Below the pieces are notes generated by a model. The model made no database searches and had not been told where the DNA came from. It worked only from the letters and a program-made list of their open reading frames with translations. A program made the translations under genes and the position numbers. A stretch of DNA of 64,000 nt from Pseudomonas sp. GGS8. GTDB lineage: Bacteria > Pseudomonadota > Gammaproteobacteria > Pseudomonadales > Pseudomonadaceae. Of this stretch, positions 1 through 48,582 are shown one piece after another. The stretch spans positions 1,603,001-1,667,000 of the forward strand of contig NZ_JALJWF010000001.1 in NCBI RefSeq assembly GCF_024168645.1, given 5' to 3'. Positions within the stretch are counted from its first letter, which is position 1. Every line of letters starts with the position of its first letter.

Positions 1-386
1 CAGCCCTCCCGTGCGGTACATATATATGTCCTGCAACAGATTCACTTCTCTTAAAATCCATGAAATCCCTCACCACCCTCACTCAACGGGTTGCTGACTC
101 CAGGGCGTAAAACCCACCAAATATTGGACTAAATTCGACAGCACGATGCGGTTTACTAACTACACTGCGTAGGAAATTTCTGAATAACCCATGAACCAGC
201 CTTTAGCCAATCAGTTCTATTGACACCTATTCGAACGCACTCTTATCTAGTCTCCAACAGGCGACTACCACCACACTCGATCATTCTTAAAACACACAAA
301 CAGTGAATCGTTTTGTTGCCTGGTAATTCACGCCTTTCGATCTTTCAGAAACGGACTTCGCGGTAAGGCTTCAAGGAGAGAACCCC
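1..386. other. Left-edge non-coding stretch
   Basis: No convincing coding frame, repeat or RNA is visible here. The stretch is less GC-rich than the genes that follow, and it ends with a good ribosome binding site (AGGAGAG) about 5-6 bases before the ATG at 387, so the promoter of that gene should lie within it. I cannot place -35/-10 boxes with confidence. Confidence 0.5.
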
Positions 387-8055: not shown

Positions 8056-8094
8056 ACACTTATTGCGGTGATTACCTGTAGCGAGGGGGCTTTT

Positions 8095-8226
8095 GTGGTG
8101 AGGGGGCTTGCCCCCGTTCGGCTGCGCAGCAGTCGCAAACCGGCCGACCTGTTTTGCCTGATATACCTCGTTGAATGCCTTGGGGCCGCTTCGCGGCCCA
8201 ACGGGGGCAAGCCCCCTCGCCACAGG
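8095..8226. repeat. REP pair (GTGGCGAGGGGGCTTGCCCCC type)
   Basis: Inverted REP copies at 8095-8115 and about 8202-8226, with the GGCTGCGCAGCAGTCGCAAA-type flank. They lie directly behind metI. Apart from these and the leader listed next, 8056-8593 holds nothing I can identify. Confidence 0.85.
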
Positions 8227-8365
8227 TAATTACCCACCTTCGAAGGGAAGTTTTCGCACAGGAAAATCAGGGTGCCAGCAGGCCCGATCCCTTTCATTTG
8301 CAGGACATTTCCTAGATCATTCCGCTCGCTTGCGCCTTCCAAATCTGCTGGCTAGTCTCGGTTCG

Positions 8366-8593
8366 TCACTGCTCATCAGTGATCGGGTTTAGTAGCCCGG
8401 ATCAATAGGCGCATAGCGTTTCATGCTCATGTCTGGCACTTTTTGTCGGATGTTGAATATGGTGGCTGTGCGTGGGGCACCCTCGGGTGCACCGGTTTTC
8501 CTATTGACCGGCCTACTAACCTGCGTACAGCCGCCACCCATCGTTTAGTAGGCGAAAAGTGACGGCTCCCATGCAGCAATAGGAGCAACACTC
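8366..8593 (+). promoter_or_regulatory. Candidate structured cis-regulatory leader RNA
   Basis: Dense complementarity precedes the 8594 gene. Local hairpins are TCACTG/CAGTGA (8366-8371 with 8377-8382), CGGG/CCCG (8384-8387 with 8396-8399), GCACCC/GGGTGC (8477-8490) and CCGGT/ACCGG (8492-8496 with 8507-8511). Longer pairings are GGCTGTGCG with CGTACAGCC (8464-8472 with 8524-8532) and GCCTACTAA (8511-8519) with TTTAGTAGGC (8544-8553). Two segments are duplicated and compete for one partner: TTTAGTAG at 8388 and 8544 for CCTACTAA; CAATAGG at 8403 and 8577 for CCTATTG at 8500. The second CAATAGG overlaps the AGGAG ribosome binding site at 8581, so alternative folding could open or hide it. I recall similar leaders before related small genes in Pseudomonas, but cannot verify this here. 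Confidence 0.55.
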
Positions 8594-8950
8594 ATGGAAA
8601 GATCCATCCCCGATCCACCTCCCGAAACATCCTCCCACAAAGCCTTCACCGACGACCTGCTCAAGGACCGTTCCGCGCTTTACCGTGCGATCGATTTCCA
8701 CCTCACTGGCAAGCAACCTTCGGCCCCTGATGAACTGCGCTTCTACAACGTCAGCAAGGACGTGAGCTTCGAAGACGCCCAGCTCTATGTGGCGGATCTG
8801 CTGCGATGTGCGTCGGTCACGGCGTATCAGTGTGGCGATCAACTCAAGGGGGCCGATCGGGCATTGGTGTTTTCCGTCTGGCATTTGCTGGAGATCGCCA
8901 AGGCGATGGTGGATCGGTCCATTGAATGCCTGGGGATGAAACAGAGCTGA
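8594..8950 (+). CDS. Small DUF3077/DUF6124-like protein
   Basis: A 118-residue soluble protein with no signal peptide, membrane segment or enzyme motif. The C-terminal two thirds (about 48-112: FYNVSKDVSFEDA, then a predicted helix pair with GADRALVFSVWHLLEIAKA and MVDRSIECL) resembles the DUF3077/DUF6124 small proteins that occur in many copies in Pseudomonas. The function is unknown. AGGAG at 8581-8585 sets the start. The long structured leader suggests tight post-transcriptional control. It appears to be a single-gene unit. Confidence 0.75.
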   Translation: MERSIPDPPPETSSHKAFTDDLLKDRSALYRAIDFHLTGKQPSAPDELRFYNVSKDVSFEDAQLYVADLLRCASVTAYQCGDQLKGADRALVFSVWHLLEIAKAMVDRSIECLGMKQS

Positions 8951-8966
8951 GTCGTCAGTGATACCG

Positions 8967-9060
8967 CCCTCGCGAGCAGGCTCGCGCCCACCATGGATCG
9001 CACCGTACACAAACTTTATGTTCGCTGAAGATCAACTGTGGGAGCGAGCCTGCTCGCGAT
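8967..9060. repeat. REP pair (GTGGGAGCGAGCCTGCTCGCGAT type)
   Basis: A slightly degenerate left copy (8967-8992) and a clean inverted right copy (9037-9060). Confidence 0.8.
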
Positions 9061-9127
9061 GGCTGCGAAGCAGCCCCTGGCGTCATGGCGTATATTCGGC
9101 GAATCCCAATTGCCTGTGCAGCCAACC

Positions 9128-45682: not shown

Positions 45683-45759
45683 GCACCAGTAGCTCAGCTG
45701 GATAGAGTACTGCCCTCCGAAGGCAGGGGTCGTGGGTTCGAATCCCGCCTGGTGCACCA
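45683..45759 (+). tRNA. tRNA-Arg (anticodon CCG)
   Basis: A 77-base tRNA with 3' CCA encoded. Acceptor GCACCAG pairs with CTGGTGC. The D arm is AGCTCAGCTGGATAGAGT, the anticodon arm CTGCC-CTCCGAA-GGCAG gives anticodon CCG (codon CGG), the variable loop is GGGTC and the T arm has GTTCGAATC. The bacteriocin locus follows it directly. Confidence 0.97.
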
Positions 45760-47961: not shown

Positions 47962-48582
47962 TCATTTTTTCTGCAAATCCTTGAGTTTTTCCGCAAGGTT
48001 TTCCTTGGGAAAGCGCTTGTGCAATGTCGTCATCAGCGCTTCGGCGGCTTGGGTTTGACCGGCGTCTTGCAGGCGTATCACTTCCCGTAATTGATCATCC
48101 AGCGACTTAGCCGGCGCGGCGGCGCGTTTGCTGAGTTTGGCTTCGTCAGCCATCTCGCTGTTGATCGACTCTCGTTGCATCGGTGCAGAAAACTCCGCCA
48201 TCGGCGCAGCCGGCGCGGGAGCGGACATAGCGCCGGTCGGTTCATCCTGGGAGCGCGCCGCGGCCTCCGGTTTGGCGGCCGGTGCGGAGGCTTTCGGCGC
48301 AGGCGCGAAGTCGTAACTCGGCAATTGCTCGGGCGTGCGTTGCACCAGCGCCAGCATCAGCGCGACGCCGACGAGGCTGGCGAATGCCACTTGCCAGCGG
48401 GGTTGTTGGCAGGCGTGGAGCCAGCGTTTCCACAGGTTCGGCTTCGGCGTGGGGGCTTCGCGGTGTGCGGTGGCGAGGATGAAGGCGTCGAGATGCGCCG
48501 GCGGTTCGCCGCTGCTGTGGTCACGAAAATGCTTGAGCACTTCATCGTCGGGCGATGGCGGTGTTTGTTTGGCGTCAGTCAT
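47962..48582 (-). CDS. Probable anti-sigma factor / membrane regulator
   Basis: A 206-residue protein with a cytosolic N-terminus (about 1-62), a single membrane helix (FASLVGVALMLALVQ, about 68-82), a long periplasmic stretch rich in alanine and proline, and a helical end (LDDQLREVIRLQDAGQTQAAEALM, then FPKENLAEKLKDL). The topology and its ATGA overlap with the sigma-factor gene fit an anti-sigma factor. The typical zinc-binding HxxxCxxC motif is absent, so the assignment rests on context. Confidence 0.65.
   Translation of the reverse strand: MTDAKQTPPSPDDEVLKHFRDHSSGEPPAHLDAFILATAHREAPTPKPNLWKRWLHACQQPRWQVAFASLVGVALMLALVQRTPEQLPSYDFAPAPKASAPAAKPEAAARSQDEPTGAMSAPAPAAPMAEFSAPMQRESINSEMADEAKLSKRAAAPAKSLDDQLREVIRLQDAGQTQAAEALMTTLHKRFPKENLAEKLKDLQKK

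Follow-up and report, generated by a model that had tools for sequence, protein, structure and literature searches.

A chromosomal C4-type antisense RNA locus in the leader of a Pseudomonas DUF6124 gene

What is the role of a 228-base leader that carries two short words twice, each with a partner lying between its copies, when one of these copies reaches into the ribosome binding site of the gene that follows? The leader lies in a 64,000-nucleotide stretch of the Pseudomonas sp. GGS8 genome (the window; NZ_JALJWF010000001.1, positions 1,603,001 to 1,667,000), and had been predicted to switch between two mutually exclusive folds, one hiding and one freeing the ribosome binding site. Here, we propose that it is very probably a C4 antisense RNA locus on the chromosome, with the layout of the phage P1 immI operon, in which C4 would repress a DUF6124 gene.

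Family membership and anatomy of the leader

The words themselves are largely as described in the original prediction. By word search within 8366-8593, CAATAGG occurs exclusively at 8403 and 8577 and its complement CCTATTG exclusively at 8500, with the downstream CAATAGG copy joined to the AGGAG ribosome binding site; the ATG lies at 8594. The second word, TTTAGTAG, is found at 8388 and 8544, with no further copies. The complement claimed for it at 8512 needs correction: its full complement (CTACTAAA) is absent, and the CCTACTAA at that place pairs in part, over 7 bases with the upstream copy (the TTAGTAG of target a1, Table 1) and over 8 bases with the downstream copy (9 counting 8511/8553). 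When the leader was shuffled with its dinucleotides kept, 5 of 20,000 shuffles gave two separate 7-base words that were each present twice and complemented once. Real sequence reaches this pattern as well, in 26 of 3189 stretches of 228 bases taken from the window at a step of 20 (that of the leader included), so the word count alone is not decisive. The decisive evidence is the Rfam scores together with the comparison with relatives.

The leader belongs to a family already in the literature, that of the C4 antisense RNA loci known from phage P1. Both the C4 match (RF01695) and the upstream a1/b1 element (RF03163) score above their gathering thresholds (Table 1), and the record of phage P1 annotates a1, b1, C4 (as a separate RNA), a2, b2, icd, and ant; the idea that such leaders lack a published description is thus not supported. 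In P1, the single match is C4, at 48337-48422. What had been described as single partners are the segments b' and a' inside C4, and the duplicated words are their targets, a1/b1 and a2/b2. The segments a' and b' are complementary to both target sets, b2 lies over the ribosome binding site, and the order and spacing are P1-like. The downstream antirepressor gene of the phage immunity (immI) operon is absent, the window gene being DUF6124.

Table 1. Features of the leader and its gene (window coordinates)
Feature	Position	Strand	Basis
c4-a1b1 element (Rfam RF03163)	8352..8403	+	54.8 bits, gathering 46.7
Target a1, TTAGTAG	8389..8395	+	word search, pairing in relatives; P1 a1 at corresponding relative place
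Target b1, TCAATAGG	8402..8409	+	word search, pairing in relatives
C4 antisense RNA (Rfam RF01695), long stem and two hairpins	8455..8541	+	76.9 bits, gathering 45
Antisense segment b', loop of second C4 hairpin (CCTATTG 8500-8506)	8499..8507	+	word search, pairing in relatives
Antisense segment a' (GCCTACTAA)	8511..8519	+	word search, pairing in relatives
Target a2, TTAGTAGGC	8545..8553	+	word search, variable-base pattern count
Target b2, CAATAGGA, overlaps ribosome binding site	8577..8584	+	word search, pairing in relatives
Ribosome binding site AGGAG	8581..8585	+	sequence
118-aa protein, DUF6124 (PF19619)	8594..8950	+	42.6 bits, cut-off 27; predicted helical (model)

Scans of the locus found neither a promoter nor, between b1 and C4 in the window leader, a terminator-like hairpin; there was no Rfam riboswitch match, on which ground a metabolite riboswitch was rejected, and no signal to which the switch would respond was found. 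P1 does have a terminator-like hairpin between b1 and C4, and 17 of 87 loci from two genomes have one (5.3 expected from mononucleotide shuffles), on which count it was rejected as a general part. Close to the start codon, GGAGC (8582-8586) can pair locally with GCTCC (8565-8569), as seen in a hairpin scan and in the fold of 8540-8615. Inverted-repeat-rich intergenic stretches, REP-type by eye, flank the locus at 8090-8230 and 8958-9070. Elsewhere in the window, a gabT RNA motif (RF01738; 43739-43800, minus strand) and a tRNA gene (45683-45756, plus strand) score over Rfam gathering.

Joint changes of the pairing segments in relatives

A search of 298 genomes of the genus matched leader and gene at E <= 1e-20 in 154, and we aligned 30 loci listed from these matching genomes, the window's own included. 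Conserved complementarity is observed in this alignment, the partners in b1-b', b'-b2, and a1-a' changing together by three of five measures. The b1-b' pairing is kept in 94.1% of cells; 28 cells show a double change, the covariation is 0.439 (0.198 in shuffles), and sliding the partner leaves 30-56% paired. For b'-b2 the corresponding values are 92.6%, 22 double-change cells, 0.292 against 0.101, and 29-64%. In both pairings none of 500 shuffles reached the number of cells paired, of double-change cells, or the covariation score. The a1-a' pairing is kept in 99.5% of cells with 12 double-change cells, A-U having become C-G in 12 of 30 rows (covariation 0.142 against 0.035, reached by 0 of 500 shuffles). 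The two remaining measures, the numbers of double-change pairs and of pair types, are those least misled by relatedness, and were reached by 79 and 132 of 500 shuffles for b1-b', by 338 and 229 for b'-b2, and by all 500 for a1-a'; since they fail to beat the shuffles, the covariation signal may come partly from few events. The C4 stems are 97.8% paired in the 30 leaders, with mostly one-sided variation that does not beat the shuffles. The a'-a2 pairing gives no signal in this alignment, because a gap shifts one allele class, and emerges in a count of the variable base alone.

That count comes from a wider set of 68 loci that encode a relative of the window protein, in 63 of which the leader was read by pattern. 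Left out were L131 and L136 (misplaced by the pattern search), L183, L185 (a' deviating from the pattern), and L186 (a late match start); in L183 the relative's leader is recognisable by eye, with C4 apparently much shortened. Among the 63 read, L173, L174, L187, L194, and L195 also have late match starts, for which reason their b2 stretch is probably misplaced. For 59 of the 63, the variable base of the a segments is consistent across a', a1, and a2 (30 T/A/A, 29 G/C/C); it disagrees in 2 (with one possible G-U pair) and is partly unread in 2. Judged by this single base, a2 appears to change with its partners.

CCTATTG is the loop in 32 of the 63 leaders, and the remainder comprises 23 distinct loops. 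Their matches to the own b1 (5.04 against 4.17) and to the own b2 (5.70 against 4.24) modestly exceed those in all 10,000 permutations. The most clear-cut example is a pair of loci (L128 and L129) with the same permease and methyltransferase flanks, both encoding proteins 97.5% identical to that of the window; between the two, b1, b', b2, and the a segments all differ. Across the 68 loci, both of these flanking genes are found in 43, one in 10, and none in 15 (with at most 1500 bases of flank), and in the 30 aligned loci both in 20, one in 7, and none in 3 (within the DNA examined). Alternative pairing of a'/b' with two target sets is thus supported by the comparison of sequences.

The same alternative pairing is part of the model of the original prediction, a cis-acting two-state leader in which a'/b' pairs with a1/b1 or with a2/b2 in one transcript and no free C4 is formed. 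Both alternative pairings are kept in relatives, and the minimum free energy fold, taken over 8366-8620, contains both a1-a' (7 base pairs) and b1-b' (8 base pairs). Private codes, described below, would be expected if each leader must match itself alone, and no C4-less gene with a convincing loop match was found. We nevertheless regard a purely cis-acting leader as unlikely: the C4 stems, partly broken in that fold, have the high pairing given above, and the C4 of P1 is annotated as a separate RNA and called trans-acting in a passage of PMC8546580. Against the C4 reading, nested folding gives C4 no more than 1.4-3.7 kcal/mol with its targets, loop-loop pairing being outside the scoring of nested folds. 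What is supported of the two predicted folds is one antisense segment with two duplicated targets, whose partners change together in relatives. By the precedent of P1, the active part would be an antisense RNA of its own that targets the ribosome binding site, and not a refolding leader alone.

Multiplication of the loci and their private codes

In the window genome, C4 is matched 35 times, with 34 of the matches over gathering, and c4-a1b1 31 times, with 13 over gathering; of its 26 DUF6124 matches, 20 lie less than 500 bases 3' of a same-strand C4. Across 59 sampled genomes of the genus the C4 count runs from 0 to 54 (median 17), with at least 20 in 26 genomes and none in 5; a looser search of the C4-richest genome gives 55 matches, 52 over gathering. 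A phylum-wide search of 398 genomes gives a C4 match in 62, own genus included, copy counts there being lower bounds with the best 10 candidates per genome scored.

We compared 87 loci from two genomes, all 35 of the window genome and the 52 over gathering in a second (G049). A reading frame of at least 45 codons follows in 79, with a few doubtful picks (L038, L043, and L077), and the 79 downstream proteins include 51 DUF6124, 4 DUF3077, and 3 Bro-N (antirepressor-like) proteins; the others are without Pfam match, many being DUF3077-like by eye. L033, L037, and L038 are without a clear b2 match or gene. At L012, several small reading frames come after the C4 locus, and the final one is DUF3077-like by eye. 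An N-terminal TPNPP/PDPP-type motif is common to DUF6124, some DUF3077-like proteins (L041 and L042), and the L109 protein (Bro-N-like by eye); it is encoded at 8594-8620 in the window and at the start of many downstream genes, and its double proline near codons 8-9 could be relevant to early translation. The predicted fold of DUF6124 was rejected as a guide to function, its mean pLDDT being 75.5 and no PDB entry matching it at E <= 0.001.

Might these loci be prophage debris without present function? Some are degenerate (L021 is frameshifted and L039 startless), L014 encodes a Bro-N protein, and the L043 product is Bro-N-like by eye. We think this most improbable, given the joint changes in three segments and the 43 of 68 relatives that lie between common permease and methyltransferase genes. 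In addition, a search of 50,697 phage records gave no match to the window protein and, for one DUF6124 paralogue, a single match near a record end; that paralogue has none in 72,556 plasmids. By these searches DUF6124 seems nearly absent from phage records.

To what extent does each C4 match its own gene? Loops were cut at fixed offsets from the C4 ends, and tighter stretches were used in place of wide ones, for which the complementarity matrix was diluted. In the window genome (35 loci), the loop-b2 run is 6.97 for self against 3.86 for others, the maximum of 10,000 permutations being 4.91; in the second genome (52 loci) it is 6.83 for self, with a permutation maximum of 4.44. A match of at least 6 bases to the own b2 is found for 27 of 35 loops in the window genome (8 falling below 6) and for 41 of 52 in the second, as compared with 183 of 3842 cross pairs within genomes. 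Neither genome contains identical loop strings, and by a combined b1 and b2 score the own locus is the strict best for 19 of the 35 loops and tied for 6. The genome holds about 35 loci, and because most have a private a/b code, each probably controls mainly its own gene. Cross matches average about the same within as between genomes (3.839 and 3.875), which indicates neither enrichment nor detectable avoidance; active avoidance of cross-talk was rejected on this ground.

These data bear directly on whether C4 RNAs act mainly on each other's genes in trans, as a cross-regulating network, which we hold to be improbable. A few loops are indeed alike, those of L030 and L032 being almost identical, with 15 of 1921 within-genome pairs at least 80% alike in the two genomes, and the trans action reported for P1 C4 would allow such a network. 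However, self complementarity is far above cross complementarity, and cross matches are about equal between genomes and within them. Two of six DUF6124 matches without C4 (within 500 bases) keep a1/b1, with a best match to the 35 loops of 6 bases, and another C4-less match, L201, pairs with one loop over 8 bases; with best matches of 5-8 bases, the six C4-less genes were rejected as trans targets. The comparisons for L199, L203, and L204 say little because the chosen start codon is doubtful. L200 and L202 are DUF6124-type with a1/b1 kept and no C4 match, the L200 leader resembling a C4 deletion by eye. At L203, a PrrF RNA (RF00444, 152.8 bits; 78-225, minus strand) shares a 1.3 kb stretch with the C4-less DUF6124 match.

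Loops also differ among close copies. Among same-genome paralogues whose C4 stems are 90-95% alike, none of 13 pairs has like loops, against 14 of 37 pairs between genomes with stems at least 90% alike, orthologues among them (Fisher 0.010, with a threshold set after looking and pairs that are not independent). Irrespective of stem similarity, like loops are found in 26 of 1820 pairs between genomes, alongside the 15 of 1921 within. Loop divergence among paralogues fits duplicated loci that reset their code; a similar picture would arise if the stems underwent gene conversion. We tentatively raise the possibility that Pseudomonas expanded a phage immunity RNA to tens of antisense switches in each genome, insulated from one another and mostly guarding DUF6124/DUF3077-type genes, whose copies reset their three-part code after duplication and so become heteroimmune like P1 and P7. 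Orthologues would tend to keep their code, and one-site modular exchange of the code is possible.

Proposed mechanism and known systems

How might such a locus work? In the C4 reading that we favour, a single transcript would carry a1/b1, C4, a2/b2, and the gene. Segments a' and b' of C4 would pair with a2 and b2, masking the ribosome binding site and turning the DUF6124 gene off. Release of C4 as a separate RNA, translational repression, and action in trans are drawn from P1 and may hold here by analogy. The upstream a1/b1 would compete for a'/b' and thereby tune the available C4; this competing role is our own inference, not taken from P1.

Both elements have been reported from phages, C4 also from Proteobacteria and c4-a1b1 also from gamma-Proteobacteria (Weinberg 2010, PMC2864571). 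A 2025 review describes how the c4 RNA of P1 and P7 acts around the ribosome binding site and takes part in heteroimmunity (PMC12197685), and in Burkholderia cenocepacia isrK and C4 are placed in one transcriptional unit (PMC4603805). The passages that mention C4 in PMC4603805, PMC12189769, and PMC4666395 contain nothing about Pseudomonas, and the passage on DUF3077 in the P. putida literature concerns a mutated pseudogene, without C4. We found no paper on DUF6124 in the open-access literature, and no description of a chromosomal C4 expansion in Pseudomonas in open-access main texts, which is weak evidence of absence. Novelty may lie in the multiplication on the chromosome, in the partnership with DUF6124 genes, and in the private codes.

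If the expansion to insulated switches raised above is real, a phage immunity RNA has become a bacterial regulatory family. Tens of natural pairing codes in one cell would allow a measurement of how far antisense RNAs must diverge to be safe from cross-talk. In turn, the DUF6124 and DUF3077-like proteins, abundant here, would gain a common mode of control and a handle on their role.

Among known systems, the leader most resembles the immI operon of P1 and P7, with the same order of a1, b1, C4, a2, b2, and gene, a two-hairpin C4, and b2 just 5' of the start codon. The distance from a1 to b1 is 14 bases in both P1 and the window, that from a2 to b2 is 29 bases in P1 and 32 in the window, and that from the start of b2 to the start codon is 18 and 17, respectively. 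Unlike in P1 and P7, the window C4 is chromosomal and one of 35 matches in its genome, the gene that it would control is DUF6124 rather than icd/ant, and the pairing code varies between loci of the genome. IsrK RNA (RF01394) gives a weak match at 8365-8444, at 27.4 bits below the gathering threshold of 50, and the window differs from it in having no terminator-like hairpin between b1 and C4. A metabolite riboswitch or attenuator would likewise place an alternative pairing over the ribosome binding site, whereas the pairing segments described here differ between loci and change together in threes.
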